36,002 bases of DNA from Pelagibacteraceae bacterium (GTDB taxonomy: Bacteria > Pseudomonadota > Alphaproteobacteria > Pelagibacterales > Pelagibacteraceae): assembly GCA_008638125.1 (NCBI GenBank), contig VTPM01000005.1, positions 1 through 36,002 on the forward strand, given 5' to 3'. This document shows positions 5,043 to 16,314 of this stretch, one piece after another. A model generated the notes under the pieces. That model was given only the letters and a program-made list of their open reading frames with translations, searched no databases and was not told the DNA's origin. Positions within the stretch are counted from its first letter, which is position 1. Every line of letters starts with the position of its first letter. The translations under genes and the position numbers were made by a program.

Positions 5043-5819
5043 ATGAGAAAATTAACTATGTATGCACTTGCAGCAGTTGCCGTTATTGGTTTAACTAGCT
5101 CAGCAAATGCAGCAACAGCTAATTTGGAACAGAATGATTTCGTAGGAATATCATTTTGGATAGTTTCAATGGCTTGTTTAGCAGCTACAGCGTTCTTCTT
5201 TCTAGAAAGAGGATCTGTTGCACCTGCTTGGAGAGTGTCAATTACAGTTGCGGGACTAGTTACTGGTATCGCTTTTTTCCACTATATGTATATGAGAGGA
5301 ATTTGGGTTGAGACTGGTCAATCACCAACTGTTTACAGATATATTGATTGGTTAATTACTGTACCTTTACTAATGCTAGAGTTTTACTTTGTATTAGCCG
5401 CAGTAAGAAAAGTACCAAGCTCAGTATTTTGGAAATTATTACTAGGTACATTAGTAATGTTAATAGGTGGATATGCCGGAGAAGCTGGTTATATGTCAGC
5501 TATGGTTGGTTTCATAATCGGAATGGCAGGATGGATTTACATTCTATATGAAGTCTTCTCAGGAGAAGCTGGATCATTAGCGGCTAAAAGCGGAAACAAA
5601 TCTCTTAAAACTGCATTTAGTGCAATGAGAGTTATTGTAACTGTTGGTTGGGCTGTTTATCCATTAGGTTATATCTTCGGATATTTAACTGCTGGTGGAG
5701 CAAATCCAAACACTCTTAACATTATTTACAATGCTGCAGACTTCTTAAACAAGATCGCTTTCGGTCTTATTATTTGGGCTGCTGCTATGGAAAATACTAG
5801 CACAAGAGCTGTTAAGTAA
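5043..5819 (+). CDS. Proteorhodopsin, green-absorbing type proton pump
   Basis: Signal peptide; helix C RYIDWLITVPLLMLEF carries D (acceptor), T and E (donor) plus Leu at the position equivalent to 105; helix G NAADFLNKIAFG has the retinal Schiff-base Lys. Confidence 0.97.
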   Translation: MRKLTMYALAAVAVIGLTSSANAATANLEQNDFVGISFWIVSMACLAATAFFFLERGSVAPAWRVSITVAGLVTGIAFFHYMYMRGIWVETGQSPTVYRYIDWLITVPLLMLEFYFVLAAVRKVPSSVFWKLLLGTLVMLIGGYAGEAGYMSAMVGFIIGMAGWIYILYEVFSGEAGSLAAKSGNKSLKTAFSAMRVIVTVGWAVYPLGYIFGYLTAGGANPNTLNIIYNAADFLNKIAFGLIIWAAAMENTSTRAVK

Positions 5820-8264: not shown

Positions 8265-10709
8265 TTATGCTACCAATTCTTCTGCTCGATCTAGGTCAAC
8301 AGCCACTAATTGACTCACTCCTTTTTCAGGCATTGTCACACCATAAAGTCTATGCATTCTAGACATAGTTAAAGCGTGGTGAGTAATAATTATAAATTTT
8401 GTTTGAGTGATTTTAGTCAGTTCATCCAACAAAGAGCAAAATCTTGTAACATTCGCATCATCCAAAGGAGCATCAACTTCATCTAAAACACAAATTGGTG
8501 AAGGGTTCACTAAAAATACTGCAAATATTAAAGAAAGAGCAGTTAAAGCTTGTTCACCACCTGACAACAAAGTAATTGATTGCAATCTTTTACCTGGAGG
8601 TGAAACTAACATTTCTAAACCTGCTTCAAGCGGATCGTCTGAGTCCACCAATTCAAGTTTAGCACTTCCACCATTAAATAGTTTTGTATAAACCTCGTTA
8701 AATTTTCTATTAACTTTTGTATAAGCATCAAGAAGTTTCTCTCTTCCTTTTTGGTTTAATTCATCAATAGAGGCTTTTAATTTAACAATCGCAGAGTACA
8801 GATCAGCTCTGTCATCTTCCATCTTTTTAATTTCATCTTGATATTTTTTAGTTTCTTCATCTGCTCTAAGATTTACAGAGCCTAAAGCATCTCTTTGTTT
8901 CTTAACTTTTTCCAAACTAGACTCTTGTTTTTCTAAACTAGGATAATTTTCAGGTGCTAACGAATTTAAGTTTGAGATGGATAGTAAATCATTTTCATTT
9001 TCAAGCTTAAGATCATTTTTAATAGTGTAAATTAAATCTTTTTTTCTTTTTTCAATACCTTCAATAGTTGCTTCGCTTCTGGCTTTGCTTTCTCTTAGTG
9101 TACTAAACTTTTCTTGAATTTCTTTGAGGTTTTGATTGATTAGATTATATTTTCCCTCAGCTTTACTTAATTCTTCATCTAATTCTTCACTTCTTTTTTT
9201 TGTATTCTCGATGTTTTGAATATTCTGACCTTTTGTAGTTGCAATTTTTTCTGGATTTTTTTGATTTTCCTGAATTTCAATTTTTATTTTTTCTCTTCTT
9301 TCATTTAACTCTGCTATCATTTTGTCTGAATTAGTTTTTAAATTCTTCCAATTTTCAAGCTCTACATCAATGTTTTTTATTCTTTCTCTTCTCTTTATAG
9401 AGTCACTTTTAATTGACTCATTTTTTCCATAAGTAGTGGCATATTTTTCTTGTGAGCCTGTAATTAAATTAACTGTATTTTTTAACCTATCAAATACTTC
9501 TCTGGTTAATTTTTTATCAGTATCAATGTATCCTTCAATTTCATTAATAATTTCATCTAGTTGAGATTGTAATTTTTGCAGACTTAATTTTGACTCACTC
9601 AGATCTTTTTCTGAGCTAATTTCAGTGCTTGAAAGCTCTTTCTCTGTCCTTAGCAGTTCATTTTTTTCCTCTAAGATTCTTTTTTCATTTAATGACGCAT
9701 CTAGTGAAATACTTTTTTCTCGTTCTAAATCTGACTCAAGAGTTTCTAATGATTTTTGAAGTTTAATTTGTAGATTTTTAATTCGAGCCTCTTCTTCGTC
9801 TAAGTTTGACATTTCAAGGTTTAATTTTTGAAGTTTGGCCTGATTTTCCATTCTTCTGTCTCTTAAAGGAGCCAGTCTTTTATTTTCTTCTTCAAGTAAT
9901 TGGTTGTTATGGCTTAGATCAATCTTAACAGCACTTAACTCATCATCTTGTTCGCCTAATTTTTCAACAATACTCAGTCTATCTTTTTCAATTTCTGAAA
10001 GTTTTAAATAAAAAAGACCAGCTTCTATGCTTTTGATTTCTCGAGATATTTCTTTATAACGCGTTGCTTCTTCAGCTTGTTTTTTTAAGTTTTCTAATTG
10101 TTTTTCTTGTTGCCTTTTCAATTCGTCAGCTCTTTTTAAGTTATTTTCCGCTGCTTCTAATCGTGACTCAGCTTCCTCTCTTCTTGCATGAATGCCCGAG
10201 ATACCTGCGGCTTCTTCTAAGACAGATCTTCGCTCAGCAGGCTTAGAAGTAACAAGAGTTCCTATTCTTCCTTGACTTATTAAGGAAGGAGAATGTGCTC
10301 CAGTTGAGAGATCGGCAAAAAAAGTTTGTGCATCTCTAGCTCTGACTTCTTTTTGATTGATAAAATATTTTGATCCTTTTTCTCTTTCAATCCGTCTGGT
10401 GACAGTTATTTCGTCTAATTCATTATATTGCATCGGCCCATCTTTGTTTGGGTTTTCAATTTGAATTGACACTTCAGCAATATTTTTTGATGGGCGATTA
10501 GAAGTTCCAGCAAAAATAACATCTTCCATACCTGAACCTCGCATACTTTTTGCAGAAGTTTCACCCATGCACCATCTAAGTGACTCAACTATGTTTGATT
10601 TTCCACATCCATTAGGACCAACTATTCCTGTTAAACCTTCTTCAATATAAAAGTTTGTTTTATCAAAAAAAGATTTAAAACCAGCAATCTCTAATTTTTT
10701 AAATCTCAT
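8265..10709 (-). CDS. smc: Chromosome segregation SMC-family ATPase (short form)
   Basis: Walker A GIVGPNGCGKSNIVESLRWCMGE, signature LLSGGEQALTALSLIFA, Walker B CVLDEVDAPLDDAN; 814 aa with intervening coiled coil. Confidence 0.93.
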   Translation of the reverse strand: MRFKKLEIAGFKSFFDKTNFYIEEGLTGIVGPNGCGKSNIVESLRWCMGETSAKSMRGSGMEDVIFAGTSNRPSKNIAEVSIQIENPNKDGPMQYNELDEITVTRRIEREKGSKYFINQKEVRARDAQTFFADLSTGAHSPSLISQGRIGTLVTSKPAERRSVLEEAAGISGIHARREEAESRLEAAENNLKRADELKRQQEKQLENLKKQAEEATRYKEISREIKSIEAGLFYLKLSEIEKDRLSIVEKLGEQDDELSAVKIDLSHNNQLLEEENKRLAPLRDRRMENQAKLQKLNLEMSNLDEEEARIKNLQIKLQKSLETLESDLEREKSISLDASLNEKRILEEKNELLRTEKELSSTEISSEKDLSESKLSLQKLQSQLDEIINEIEGYIDTDKKLTREVFDRLKNTVNLITGSQEKYATTYGKNESIKSDSIKRRERIKNIDVELENWKNLKTNSDKMIAELNERREKIKIEIQENQKNPEKIATTKGQNIQNIENTKKRSEELDEELSKAEGKYNLINQNLKEIQEKFSTLRESKARSEATIEGIEKRKKDLIYTIKNDLKLENENDLLSISNLNSLAPENYPSLEKQESSLEKVKKQRDALGSVNLRADEETKKYQDEIKKMEDDRADLYSAIVKLKASIDELNQKGREKLLDAYTKVNRKFNEVYTKLFNGGSAKLELVDSDDPLEAGLEMLVSPPGKRLQSITLLSGGEQALTALSLIFAVFLVNPSPICVLDEVDAPLDDANVTRFCSLLDELTKITQTKFIIITHHALTMSRMHRLYGVTMPEKGVSQLVAVDLDRAEELVA

Positions 10710-11293: not shown

Positions 11294-11762
11294 TGTATGC
11301 TTCTATAAGTTTATTTAATGTTTTCTTAAGCCCTTCATTATTAATATTCTCTAACTTATTGTTAAAATTTTTTTTAACTCCATTAGAGGTTTTTTTCTCA
11401 TTATTTATTTTTCTTTCTTGTACTATTTTAAGCTTAACCTCTTTAATACACTGATAGCCAAAAAAGGCATTAATTTTATCTATAATTTCTTGCTTGCTGT
11501 ATTCAATTTCTAGCTCGTTTCCATGAATGACATTTAAAACGAGCGTTCCATTATTCATTTCTTTACTCATTTTAATTGTATTTGGATAGCAAGCGTTTGA
11601 GATATCTTTACCGACCATTTTGACCCAGTTATCCACTATATTTGAAAAATTATAACCACCTCGCTTAAGAAGTTTTTTTAGACCGTGCGGCAAAGACTTT
11701 GCAAAAGGCCTTAATCCTTGTGTGAAAGAATGGCTTTTACTATTATCTTTTTTATCATGCAT
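11277..11762 (-). CDS. DUF721/DciA-like protein
   Basis: N-terminal half (LKRGGYNFSNIVDNWVKMVGKDISNACYPNTIKM...LVLNVIHGNELEIEYSKQEIIDKINAFFG) matches the DUF721 pattern. Confidence 0.75.
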   Translation of the reverse strand: MHDKKDNSKSHSFTQGLRPFAKSLPHGLKKLLKRGGYNFSNIVDNWVKMVGKDISNACYPNTIKMSKEMNNGTLVLNVIHGNELEIEYSKQEIIDKINAFFGYQCIKEVKLKIVQERKINNEKKTSNGVKKNFNNKLENINNEGLKKTLNKLIEAYNAKNN

Positions 11763-12761
11763 TTAAGCAGCAATTTATCAAAAAAAATTTTAGCTTGGTA
11801 CGATAATAACAAAAGAGATCTACCTTGGCGTGTTAGTAAAAATTCAAAAAAAATACTCTATTACAGACTTTTAAGCGAGTTCATGTTGCAACAAACTCAA
11901 GTGAAAACAGTTTTGCCTTATTTTAGAAAATTTAGGTTAATTTTTCCAACATTAGATTCGCTCTCTAGATCAAGTGAAAAAAAAGTTTTAAAAATGTGGG
12001 AAGGCCTTGGTTATTACAGAAGAGCAAGAAATCTATTAGCAACATCTAAAATTCTTGCAAAAAATTATAGATCTCAGTTACCCAAGGAGTATAAGGAAAT
12101 TATTAAATTACCAGGAATAGGTGATTACACAGCAAATGCCCTGCAAGCTTTTATCTTCAATAAACCAACTTTAGCTATTGATGGAAATGTTAAAAGAGTT
12201 TTTTCAAGATTATTAAATAAAAATGAAAATAAAATAAATTTTAAAAGCCTTATTGAAATAAATAAAAAAAATTTATTTAGGTTAAATAGAAATTCAGATT
12301 TAGTTGAAGCCTTTATGGAATTTGGAGCTTTAGTTTGTAAACCCAAAGAACCTGACTGTCAAAATTGTAAGTTAAATAATATATGTATTTATTTTAAATC
12401 AAAAAATAAATTTGTAAAAACCCTAAAAGTTAAGCCAGAAACTAAAAGTTATAATATTTTTTGCTACATCAATAAAGAAAAGAATCAAATCGCTTTAACA
12501 AAAAAAAACAATCTAGGTTTTTTAAAAAATTTTTATTTACCTCCAATGAAAGAAGTTAAAGATGGATCATTATTAAGAAACTGGAAGCATCATTCTAATT
12601 TTAAAAATTTAATTTCTAATAAAAAACTAGATATAAATTTATATTACAAGTATACAAAAAAAAATCCTATGCAAACAGAATGGTTCTCACTCAAAAATAA
12701 TTATGAATTTATACCCTCTTTCACAAAAAAAATTTTTAAAGAAGTTTTAAAAATAAATTAA
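11757..12761 (+). CDS. mutY: A/G-specific adenine glycosylase
   Basis: LPWR, SEFMLQQTQVKTVLPYF, LPGIGDYTANALQAF and Fe-S loop C-X6-C-X2-C-X5-C. Start moved to ATG 11757 (ORF track 11718) because the N-terminus MHLSSNLSKKILAWYD then matches the expected MutY start. Confidence 0.93.
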   Translation: MHLSSNLSKKILAWYDNNKRDLPWRVSKNSKKILYYRLLSEFMLQQTQVKTVLPYFRKFRLIFPTLDSLSRSSEKKVLKMWEGLGYYRRARNLLATSKILAKNYRSQLPKEYKEIIKLPGIGDYTANALQAFIFNKPTLAIDGNVKRVFSRLLNKNENKINFKSLIEINKKNLFRLNRNSDLVEAFMEFGALVCKPKEPDCQNCKLNNICIYFKSKNKFVKTLKVKPETKSYNIFCYINKEKNQIALTKKNNLGFLKNFYLPPMKEVKDGSLLRNWKHHSNFKNLISNKKLDINLYYKYTKKNPMQTEWFSLKNNYEFIPSFTKKIFKEVLKIN

Positions 12762-13906
12762 TGAAAAAAAAAATAGCAATAATTGGAGCTGGAATAGGGG
12801 GGCTTTGTCTAGCAAATCTATTACAAAAAAACTCCAACTATGAAATTATGCTTTATGAAAAAGAAGAGGCATTAAGATTAGACGAGGGATATGGAATTCA
12901 ATTAGCTGTGAATAGCGTAACTATTCTGAATAAAATTGGGTTTAACGATTTAAATAAAAATGAAAAATTTAATCCAATTAAATTAGATTTTTACTCAAAT
13001 AAAAACAAAATTACAGATTTAGATTTAACCCAATTTAATTTCAATGAAGATAAATATACAACACTAAAAAGATCCGTATTAATAAGGTTTTTAAAAGATA
13101 AATTATTTTCAAATTTAATAAGGTTTAATAAAACCTTAAAAAAAGTAGATCAGATTGATCAAAAATTAAGGATAACATTTAATGACGATCAGGTTAATGA
13201 AGTCGATTATCTTATTGTTGCAGATGGTGTTTTTTCTAAAACCAGATCTATGCTTGAAAACAAAAACATTAAGCCGAATTATCTAGGCTCTATGGCATTT
13301 AGATTTTTAATTGATAAAAATCGCCAAAAATATTTTGATAAAAACAATATTAGTCTTGTAATGGGCTCAGATTGTCATTTAGTAGCTTACCCAGTTGATC
13401 CGAATAATTTAAACATTGTAATGATTGCAAGAGCCAAAGAGAAAAGTTTACAAAAATTTCAGGAAAGTTCTTATATAAAAAGTTTTTTAAATAACTCAAT
13501 TTTAAAAGACTATCCTGAAGTAATAAATTTTGAGAATAATGATTTTAAATTTTGGCCAATTTATTTTTCTAAGAAACCACAGTTACCAATCTTAAAAAAC
13601 GTATTTTACTTAGGGGACGCTTTTTATGCTTTTCCTCCTACGATGGCACAAGGAGCTTCACAGTCAATAGAAGCAAGTATGGAATTGTTTGAAATTTTAC
13701 AAAGTAATAAATCAGAAAAAGAGAAAGAATATTTTGAAAATAGACTAAAACGTTCTGAAATGATTATAAAAAGATCAAAATTTAATTATTTTGCTTTTCA
13801 TTTGAAAAGCAATTTTTTTATTTGGTTTAGAGAGATAATTTTGAAACGGGCTATAAAAAACAAGAATTTTATTGATAGTTATTTAGGCAGAGTTTTTAAT
13901 AAATAA
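12761..13906 (+). CDS. FAD-dependent monooxygenase (UbiH/salicylate hydroxylase-like)
   Basis: GxGxxG IIGAGIGGLCLANLL, DG motif LIVADGVFSKTRS, GD motif YLGDAFYAFPPTMAQGASQSIEAS. Substrate not inferable. Confidence 0.8.
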   Translation: MKKKIAIIGAGIGGLCLANLLQKNSNYEIMLYEKEEALRLDEGYGIQLAVNSVTILNKIGFNDLNKNEKFNPIKLDFYSNKNKITDLDLTQFNFNEDKYTTLKRSVLIRFLKDKLFSNLIRFNKTLKKVDQIDQKLRITFNDDQVNEVDYLIVADGVFSKTRSMLENKNIKPNYLGSMAFRFLIDKNRQKYFDKNNISLVMGSDCHLVAYPVDPNNLNIVMIARAKEKSLQKFQESSYIKSFLNNSILKDYPEVINFENNDFKFWPIYFSKKPQLPILKNVFYLGDAFYAFPPTMAQGASQSIEASMELFEILQSNKSEKEKEYFENRLKRSEMIIKRSKFNYFAFHLKSNFFIWFREIILKRAIKNKNFIDSYLGRVFNK

Positions 13907-14956
13907 TTTTTGCCTTAAATTATCAATGGGTTTCATCGATCCTTCCATATTATAGTGCCAATAAGTCCAACCATTACAACTTTCAGCTCCAATGATTTTT
14001 GCAGCAACTTTATGAATTGATCCTTCATTGTCTTTATACCTAATACTTCCATCTGCCATAATTTTTGCATTATATTTCTTTTTATTATCAAAAAGTGTCA
14101 TGCCTGGCTCTAAAATACCCATTTCTATCAGCGAGCCAAAAGGTATTCTTGGTTTAGATTTATTATTTTGTACAGTGTCTAAAAATTCATCTTTTAAGGG
14201 CTTAGTTTCTTCAATTCTTTTTTTAGCAGCTAAGTAATATTTTTTATCTTTTTCAATACCAAAAAAATTTCTACCTAATTTTTTTGCAACTACTGCACTA
14301 GTACCTGTGCCAATAAATGGATCAAATATTGCATCGCCTTTATTTGTTGTTGCTAAAATAATTCGATATAAAAGAGCTTCAGGTTTTTGAGTAGAATGTA
14401 CTTTTTGTCCATTTTTTTTTAGTCTTTCTTTGCCATTACAAATTGGCAGCAACCAATCAGATCTCATTTGAAGATCATCATTAAAGCATTTTAGGGATTG
14501 ATAATTAAATTTATATTTTGATTTTTTATTTTTTGAAGCCCAAATTAATGTCTCATGAGCATTAGTAAATCTTGTGCCTCTAAAATTAGGCATTGGATTA
14601 TTTTTTCTCCAAATAATATCATTGAGAAGCCAGTAGTCTAAATTTTGCAAGTGATAACCTAGTCTAAATATATTGTGATAAGAACCTATAACCCAGATCG
14701 ATCCATCATCTTTTAAAATTCTTTTGCACTCTATTAGCCATGCTTTGCAAAACTTGTCATAATGATCAAAGCTTTTAAATTGATCCCATTTATCATCTAC
14801 GCCATTAACTTTGCTATCATCAGGTCTTCTAAGTTTTTCTCCGATTTGCATATTGTAGGGAGGATCAGCAAAAACTAAGTCAAAACTTTTACTTGGAATT
14901 TTTTTTAAAATCTCGAGAGAATCTCCGTTAGCAATTGTATTTAGAAAGTTTGACAT
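13883..14956 (-). CDS. ccrM: CcrM-type adenine-N6 DNA methyltransferase (predicted GANTC)
   Basis: FADPPYNMQ motif, STQKPEALLYRII, FDPFIGTGTSAVVAKKLGRNFFGIE, and C-terminal RAMA-like domain (IPFGSLIEMGILEPGMTLFD). Confidence 0.93.
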   Translation of the reverse strand: MSNFLNTIANGDSLEILKKIPSKSFDLVFADPPYNMQIGEKLRRPDDSKVNGVDDKWDQFKSFDHYDKFCKAWLIECKRILKDDGSIWVIGSYHNIFRLGYHLQNLDYWLLNDIIWRKNNPMPNFRGTRFTNAHETLIWASKNKKSKYKFNYQSLKCFNDDLQMRSDWLLPICNGKERLKKNGQKVHSTQKPEALLYRIILATTNKGDAIFDPFIGTGTSAVVAKKLGRNFFGIEKDKKYYLAAKKRIEETKPLKDEFLDTVQNNKSKPRIPFGSLIEMGILEPGMTLFDNKKKYNAKIMADGSIRYKDNEGSIHKVAAKIIGAESCNGWTYWHYNMEGSMKPIDNLRQKLFIKNSA

Positions 14957-15029: not shown

Positions 15030-15608
15030 TTAGCTTTGCCTTAACAACATGTTGTGTATTGGCTTGAAACCTTTTCTATGATGACTTGTGATCCCGTATT
15101 TTTTTAAACCTTCAAGATGTGCTTTAGTTCCATACCCAAAATTCTTTTCCCATAAATAATTAGAGAATTTTTCAGAAAGTTTTATCATTAATAAATCGCG
15201 GTAAGTTTTAGCTATAATTGATGCAGCACTTATACATTTAATTTTTTCATCTCCTTTAATTATAGTTTTAAAATTTTTTAGTCCTTTAGGCGCAAAAATT
15301 CCATCAATCAAAATTTGATCTGGTTTTTTTCTTAATTTTTCAATAGCTCTGCTCATTGATAATAAAGATGCCTGTAAAATATTAATTTTAAATATCTCCT
15401 CTACAGAAGCCATACCAATTGCAAAACAAGAATTTTCTTTAATATAATCTGCTATCTTTAATCTTTGTGTAAAATTTATTTTTTTTGAGTCCTTAATCGA
15501 ACTTAAGTCTATCTTATCATTAAGAATTACAGCAGCAGAAACAACTGGGCCAGCTAAACAGCCTCTACCAACCTCATCAACTCCAGCAACTAGCATATTA
15601 TTTTTCAA
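15030..15608 (-). CDS. rnhB: Ribonuclease HII
   Basis: VAGVDEVGRGCLAGPVVSAAVIL, DSKK, and SAASIIAKTYRD motifs. Confidence 0.96.
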   Translation of the reverse strand: MKNNMLVAGVDEVGRGCLAGPVVSAAVILNDKIDLSSIKDSKKINFTQRLKIADYIKENSCFAIGMASVEEIFKINILQASLLSMSRAIEKLRKKPDQILIDGIFAPKGLKNFKTIIKGDEKIKCISAASIIAKTYRDLLMIKLSEKFSNYLWEKNFGYGTKAHLEGLKKYGITSHHRKGFKPIHNMLLRQS

Positions 15609-16314
15609 GCGTAATACCTAAATCAATTATTTTTTTTCTTATCATTTTAAGGTCATTCCAAGAAAGTTTTTTTTGATCAGGTTGTCTCATTAAAAAAGCT
15701 GGATGAAAAGAAGCAATGATTGAAGTGTTACATTTACCAATTTTTTTTTCAACCCATTTACCTCTAGCTTCTGATATTATTTTTTCATTTCCTAAAATAG
15801 CATTAAGAGCTGTGCTACCTAGAAGAATTAAAATTTTTGGATTAATAATTTCAATATGTTTAATTAGGTAAGGAAGATAGCGATTGATCTCTTCCTCTGT
15901 TGGACTTCTATTTTCAGGCGGTCTAAAGTTAACGACATTTGTTATGTAAACATTATCTCGATCTAAATTTATAGAAAGCAACATTTTATCTAATAGTTCT
16001 CCAGTTTTTCCAATAAACGGAATACCTTCTAAATCTTCATTTGCTCCAGGTCCTTCACCAATTAACATTATTTTTGCATTAGGATTTCCATCTGAAAAAA
16101 CAATGTTTGTGGAGTTTTTTTTTAAATTACAGTTTTTGATATTTGAGATGGCGCTCTTAAGCTCTTGTAGTTCTTTTCCTTTGGGACTTTTTATTGATAA
16201 ATTTTTATTAGATTTGTAGCGATTTATAGCTTCATTTTCATATATTAGATTGTGATTAATGAGACTATAATATTTAACTAACTTGACTAATTTGGTATTA
16301 ATTTTTTTGATCAT
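15598..16314 (-). CDS. Uracil-DNA glycosylase family 4-like protein
   Basis: Motif A IGEGPGANEDLEGIPFIGKTGELLDKML, VYITNVVNFRPPENRSPT, motif B SFHPAFLMRQP. Start codon uncertain. Confidence 0.88.
   Translation of the reverse strand: MIKKINTKLVKLVKYYSLINHNLIYENEAINRYKSNKNLSIKSPKGKELQELKSAISNIKNCNLKKNSTNIVFSDGNPNAKIMLIGEGPGANEDLEGIPFIGKTGELLDKMLLSINLDRDNVYITNVVNFRPPENRSPTEEEINRYLPYLIKHIEIINPKILILLGSTALNAILGNEKIISEARGKWVEKKIGKCNTSIIASFHPAFLMRQPDQKKLSWNDLKMIRKKIIDLGITLEK

Follow-up and report, generated by a model that had tools for sequence, protein, structure and literature searches.

A family-4-type uracil-DNA glycosylase of Pelagibacteraceae lacking most Fe-S cluster ligands, and its alphaproteobacterial subfamily

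Family-4 uracil-DNA glycosylases (UDGa or UdgA), such as TthUDGa of T. thermophilus (1UI0) and the enzymes of S. tokodaii (4zbx), T. maritima (TM0511) and A. fulgidus (AfUDG), are recognised by a GE(A/G)PG motif A, an HPA..L motif B and a [4Fe-4S] cluster bound by four cysteines. The role of the [4Fe-4S] cluster in DNA glycosylases is disputed, being seen either as a structural pin or as a redox or charge-transport sensor. Family-5 enzymes (UdgB) have GLAPA in motif A and HPSPxN in motif B; they occur in some Pelagibacteraceae (SAR11), and these relatives (L075–L080) contain GLAPAAHGG, HPSPRN and all four cluster cysteines. BdiUng (Blr0248) of Bradyrhizobium diazoefficiens, the subject of a 2017 study by Chembazhi et al., is said to have a family-4-like fold without a family-1 sequence, with a motif A reported as GQDPA. 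UdgX of M. smegmatis (TIGR03914) belongs to the same superfamily, shares the fold and is described as a 4Fe-4S protein. It has a GEQPG motif A and a KRRIH loop (PMC10359453).

The gene described here, udg, is located in a 36,002-nucleotide stretch of a Pelagibacteraceae genome (assembly GCA_008638125.1, contig VTPM01000005.1, positions 1 to 36,002), referred to below as the window. The reading frame has an ATG start, encodes 238 aa and is on the minus strand, which the first-pass annotation of this DNA had not specified. The gene and its catalytic features are as follows.

15598..16314, minus strand: udg, family-4-type uracil-DNA glycosylase without Fe-S cluster ligands (TIGR00758, PF03167, model fold, dN/dS)
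16015..16059, minus strand: motif A region, G86-E87-G88-P89-G90 to E93 and F100, uracil pocket (maps to E41, G42, E47 and F54 of TthUDGa; roles from PMC5387724)
15910..15912, minus strand: Asn135 codon, proposed water-positioning residue (N89 in TthUDGa, by mapping; role from PMC5387724)
15691..15705, minus strand: motif B, H204-P-A-F-L, with H204 equivalent to catalytic H155 (by mapping; role from PMC5387724)

The window UDG scores 201.3 bits against TIGR00758 (UDG_fam4; cut-off 125.3), which bears out its proposed descent from family 4, and 129 bits against PF03167. Among proteins of solved structure, the family-4 UDGs 1ui0, 4zbx and 1l9g are its closest relatives. An AlphaFold model computed with 60 relatives has a mean pLDDT of 87.5, with values of ~95 or more in most 10-residue blocks from residue 51 onwards, the former cluster region included; AlphaFold also orders apo cluster sites, and this confidence is evidence of the fold and not of cluster absence. 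Foldseek searches with the model place family-4 crystal structures at ranks 1–6 (TM 0.86–0.89 normalised by target), the top matches being 4zbx and 1ui0 (TM 0.87–0.89 by target), and the fold is that of family 4. Relative to that family there is an N-terminal extension of ~45 residues, in which a helix at residues 7–19 is modelled with a pLDDT of ~60 and the linker at residues 20–40 with one below 50; a role for this extension as a structural stand-in for the cluster is unsupported given the low confidence of the helix. Unlike UdgX, the protein has GEGPG in motif A and no KRRIH-type loop, and it scores 137.5 bits against the TIGR03914 cut-off of 190. The GLAPA and HPSPxN motifs of family 5 are absent and the family-5 profile matches only with an E value of 3.5e-7, while TIGR00628 (family-1 Ung) has no match in the window's genome.

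None of the catalytic residues that mutagenesis has identified in TthUDGa is missing. Both GEGPGANEDLEGIPF and HPAFL are present, as first noted from the sequence, and motifs A (G86-E87-G88-P89-G90) and B (H204-P-A-F-L) conform to the family-4 patterns. Seven TthUDGa residues whose mutation harms the enzyme (E41, G42, E47, F54, N80, N89 and H155; PMC5387724) align with E87, G88, E93, F100, N126, N135 and H204 of the window UDG and are all identical in type; these include the Asn and Phe of the family-4 uracil pocket (N126 and F100) together with E93 and N135.

Most of the cluster ligands, by contrast, are gone. Alignment to 1UI0 places Cys13, Cys16, Cys84 and Cys100 of TthUDGa opposite Ile59, Cys62, Phe130 and Tyr146, in exact agreement with the first-pass reading of NIKNCNL, VVNFRPP and EEINRYLPYL as replacements of Cys by Ile, Phe and Tyr that leave a single ligand.

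16138..16140, minus strand: Ile59 codon, cluster ligand 1 position (Cys13 in T. thermophilus UDGa; alignment to 1UI0)
16129..16131, minus strand: Cys62 codon, sole remaining ligand position (Cys16; alignment to 1UI0)
15925..15927, minus strand: Phe130 codon in VVNFRPP, cluster ligand 3 position (Cys84; alignment to 1UI0)
15877..15879, minus strand: Tyr146 codon, cluster ligand 4 position (Cys100; alignment to 1UI0)

The entire protein contains just two cysteines, C62 and C195, so that a normal four-cysteine cluster cannot form. It is scarcely credible that a cluster or other metal is still bound through alternative ligands (e.g. Cys62, His, Asp/Glu or Tyr146): Fe-S proteins with one non-cysteine ligand do exist and the Cys62 position is Cys in 103 of 118 non-gap SAR11 sequences, but C195 is not conserved, the only histidines are at 21, 153 and 204 (the last being catalytic), positions 1 and 3 are occupied by Ile/Leu and Phe/Tyr, and the core domain of some SAR11 relatives is wholly without cysteine. 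Among Pelagibacteraceae core domains, 51/83 have one cysteine and 6/83 have none, whereas four-ligand sequences have 4–8. By descent and curated score the window UDG is assigned to family 4, with which it shares the fold, the GE[AG]PG motif, the pocket and the HPA motif, but it lacks three of the four ligand cysteines of the [4Fe-4S] site that defines that family. On these sequence features we place it in an apparently cluster-free subfamily of Alphaproteobacteria instead of among the canonical family-4 enzymes.

The protein is present in 130 of 147 Pelagibacteraceae genomes and in all 53 of those of high quality. The usual ligand pattern in the family is I/L-C-Y/F-Y, and none of the family-4 sequences examined there has Cys at ligand positions 1, 3 or 4, so the loss is not an accident of alignment or a sequencing error. 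Purifying selection on udg is strong, with dN/dS between close pairs of 0.03–0.12, several of these pairs being near dS saturation. A pseudogene or assembly artefact is ruled out by the 130 related genomes with a match, the low dN/dS and the conserved neighbours. Genomes of genus g5 each contain two diverged family-4-like copies (e.g. L061 and L062, genome G005), neither of which has a cluster cysteine; the second copy has also lost the HP motif (replaced by DP) and the RPP loop.

Matches to TIGR00758 are found in 143 of 144 genomes of the class Alphaproteobacteria. Eighty-eight class sequences were compared, made up of the 30 with the highest scores, six Alphaproteobacteria from a phylum search and 52 picked down the remaining list. 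Ligand 3 is Trp in 85 of them, Tyr in two and Cys in one; at ligand 1, 77 have Phe or Tyr. The resulting F-C-W-C pattern is carried by Bradyrhizobium, Afipia, Ahrensia, Rhodospirillales and Anaplasma, and by 15 of 16 sequences of the sister family within the same order (f2), the sixteenth being F-C-W-Y. All 27 sampled sequences from Pseudomonadota outside Alphaproteobacteria are C-C-C-C. F-C-W-C UDGs from Bradyrhizobium, Afipia, Anaplasma and the sister family are ~40–58% identical to the window UDG and have the same catalytic motifs, a non-cysteine ligand 1 and an aromatic ligand 3; they differ in that ligands 2 and 4 are mostly Cys, whereas the window UDG has just ligand 2. This lineage, from which BdiUng stands apart as a separate new family, is the actual subfamily of the window UDG. 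No earlier description of a cluster-free subfamily was found in the searchable literature, though one may exist in the UDG phylogeny papers.

Two of the three substitutions are common to nearly all sampled Alphaproteobacteria and must be older than SAR11. In a tree of 137 rows computed after removal of the four trait columns, a quick analysis with moderate rooting and deep support, every C-C-C-C row falls on the same side of one branch (SH-aLRT 88), and the window UDG, with I59 and F130, is placed inside the F-C-W-C clade as defined here. The fewest changes required on this tree are one for Cys3, three for Cys1, nine for Cys4 and 13 for Cys2. Most simply, ligands 1 and 3 would have been lost once, in an ancestor within the alphaproteobacterial lineage, and ligands 2 and 4 many times thereafter, with the disappearance of ligand 4 from SAR11 as one such case; other alphaproteobacterial families are reconstructed as having lost their last cysteines independently. 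Tolerance of ligand loss in many separate lineages suggests that the cluster was less needed after the disappearance of ligands 1 and 3. The possibility, raised in the first-pass annotation, that the protein belongs to a UDG family in which the cluster was never present is thus half right: the subfamily appears to have been cluster-free since the base of the class, but its ancestor had a cluster.

This distribution bears directly on the suggestion, made in the same annotation, that the protein is a variant that spares iron in an iron-poor ocean. SAR11 bacteria live in low-iron water, and they are missing three of the four ligands where most other Alphaproteobacteria are missing two. However, two of the three losses are also found in soil, freshwater and host-associated members of the class, tick-borne ones included (e.g. 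Bradyrhizobium, Afipia and Anaplasma), ligand 4 is retained in 15/16 sequences of the sister family within the order, and Pelagibacteraceae MutY, Nth and family-5 UDG all retain their cluster cysteines; a low-copy repair enzyme would also save very little iron. MutY of the window (11718–12761) has, as was noticed at first reading, all four Fe-S cysteines (C207, C214, C217 and C223) in a C-x6-C-x2-C-x5-C pattern, and the same pattern is present in SAR11 Nth in all eight loci examined. That SAR11 dropped the cluster owing to scarce ocean iron is therefore very improbable and is largely refuted by the distribution; the ligand loss is judged from these comparisons to be an ancient family trait and not a response to the low iron content of seawater.

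Ligands 2 and 4 are both kept in 66 of the 88 class sequences (L116–L145, L174–L225 and others) and both lost in 12, with five and five mixed, even where no cluster should be able to form. Co-loss is significant on the raw table (Fisher p ~1e-7), but only one or two independent pairs lie on well-supported branches, and the sequences are no more than suggestive that the two ligands are lost or kept jointly. A more elaborate history, in which a class-wide protein-only core replaced the [4Fe-4S] cluster and ligands 2 and 4 came in most members to form a new two-cysteine site (a redox disulfide or mononuclear metal) that was later dismantled in SAR11, is considered unlikely.

One alphaproteobacterial genome (G281) contains a four-cysteine family-4 UDG (L194) together with an F-C-W-C copy (L225) that has decayed and lost its HP motif. 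The coexistence of the two indicates that gene transfer happens, and L194 looks like a transferred Fe-S enzyme replacing L225. No relatives of the window UDG on viral contigs were confirmed.

The window UDG is most likely an active, cluster-free enzyme with hydrophobic side chains at the former cluster site. A precedent for activity without a cluster is given by Cys-to-Ser mutants of family-4 UDG, which lose only ~40% of their activity and show the cluster to be largely dispensable for chemistry (PMC5295032). On the sequence comparisons above, it is very probably an active UDG of Fe-S family-4 descent within an alphaproteobacterial subfamily that gave up its cluster. In the ancestor of this subfamily, ligands 1 and 3 would have been swapped for bulky aromatics (Phe/Tyr and Trp), after which ligands 2 and 4 would have been expendable; in Pelagibacteraceae ligand 4 would have become Tyr, ligand 1 Ile/Leu and ligand 3 Phe/Tyr, with the hydrophobic side chains presumably packing where the cluster had held the RPP loop and N-terminal helix in place. 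Catalysis would proceed as in family 4, with N126, F100 and E93 holding the uracil, H204 stabilising the leaving uracilate and N135 positioning the water.

It is quite unlikely that glycosylase activity has been lost and that the protein persists in a structural role or as a binder of DNA or uracil. Such a loss would be in keeping with the decayed motifs of some relatives, in which H204 is replaced by Asn/Ser (ten genomes of genus g4) or the GE of motif A by GD (g9 and g12), and the equivalent H155S substitution in TthUDGa lowers k2 by more than three orders of magnitude (PMC5387724). The window UDG, however, retains every pocket residue and is under strong selection, and motif decay occurs mainly alongside a family-5 UDG, of which none was found in the window's genus.

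Within Pelagibacteraceae, intact family-4 motifs are found in 8/27 genomes with a full-length Fe-S family-5 UDG (UdgB) and in 46/48 without one (Fisher p ~1e-9, a statistic that ignores kinship). The UdgB-linked decay (H204 to N/S, GE to GD) is seen in genera g4, g7, g9 and g12 (e.g. L047–L059, L063–L070) as opposed to g1–g3.

Family-1 Ung was not found in 98 Pelagibacteraceae genomes, and PF03167 has exactly one match in each of the 24 genomes of the window's genus with any match. Searches for family-1, family-5 and PF03167 proteins thus gave no candidate for a second, canonical UDG covering the function in the genus, and udg is the only UDG-superfamily gene detected there; the window's genome is ~88% complete, and this point rests on the genus-wide picture. 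As the sole protein of its superfamily detected in the genus, the active cluster-free UDG would presumably start uracil base-excision repair.

In this SAR11 bacterium an apparently cluster-free enzyme serves as the sole recognised UDG. The class-wide apparent loss of the cluster from an otherwise intact UDG constitutes a natural experiment on how the cluster affects stability and the search for damage, and the assumption that a family-4 UDG is an Fe-S protein is not safe in the annotation of alphaproteobacterial genomes.

Two genes lie downstream of udg on the same strand, and the order udg-rnhB-ccrM is kept in nearly all SAR11 loci examined.

15030..15608, minus strand: rnhB (ribonuclease HII), sharing 11 bases with the 3′ end of udg (ncbifam; conserved order)
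13883..14956, minus strand: ccrM-like adenine DNA methyltransferase, downstream of rnhB (NF050803, 580 bits, below the cut-off of 830; conserved order)

Elsewhere in the window, an SMC-family protein (8265–10709, minus strand) is just 814 aa long; SMC profiles match both of its ends with ~240 central positions skipped, and no Pfam match to an SMC hinge domain was found in it. A bacteriorhodopsin-like proteorhodopsin gene is located at 5043–5819 on the plus strand (PF01036, 166 bits).
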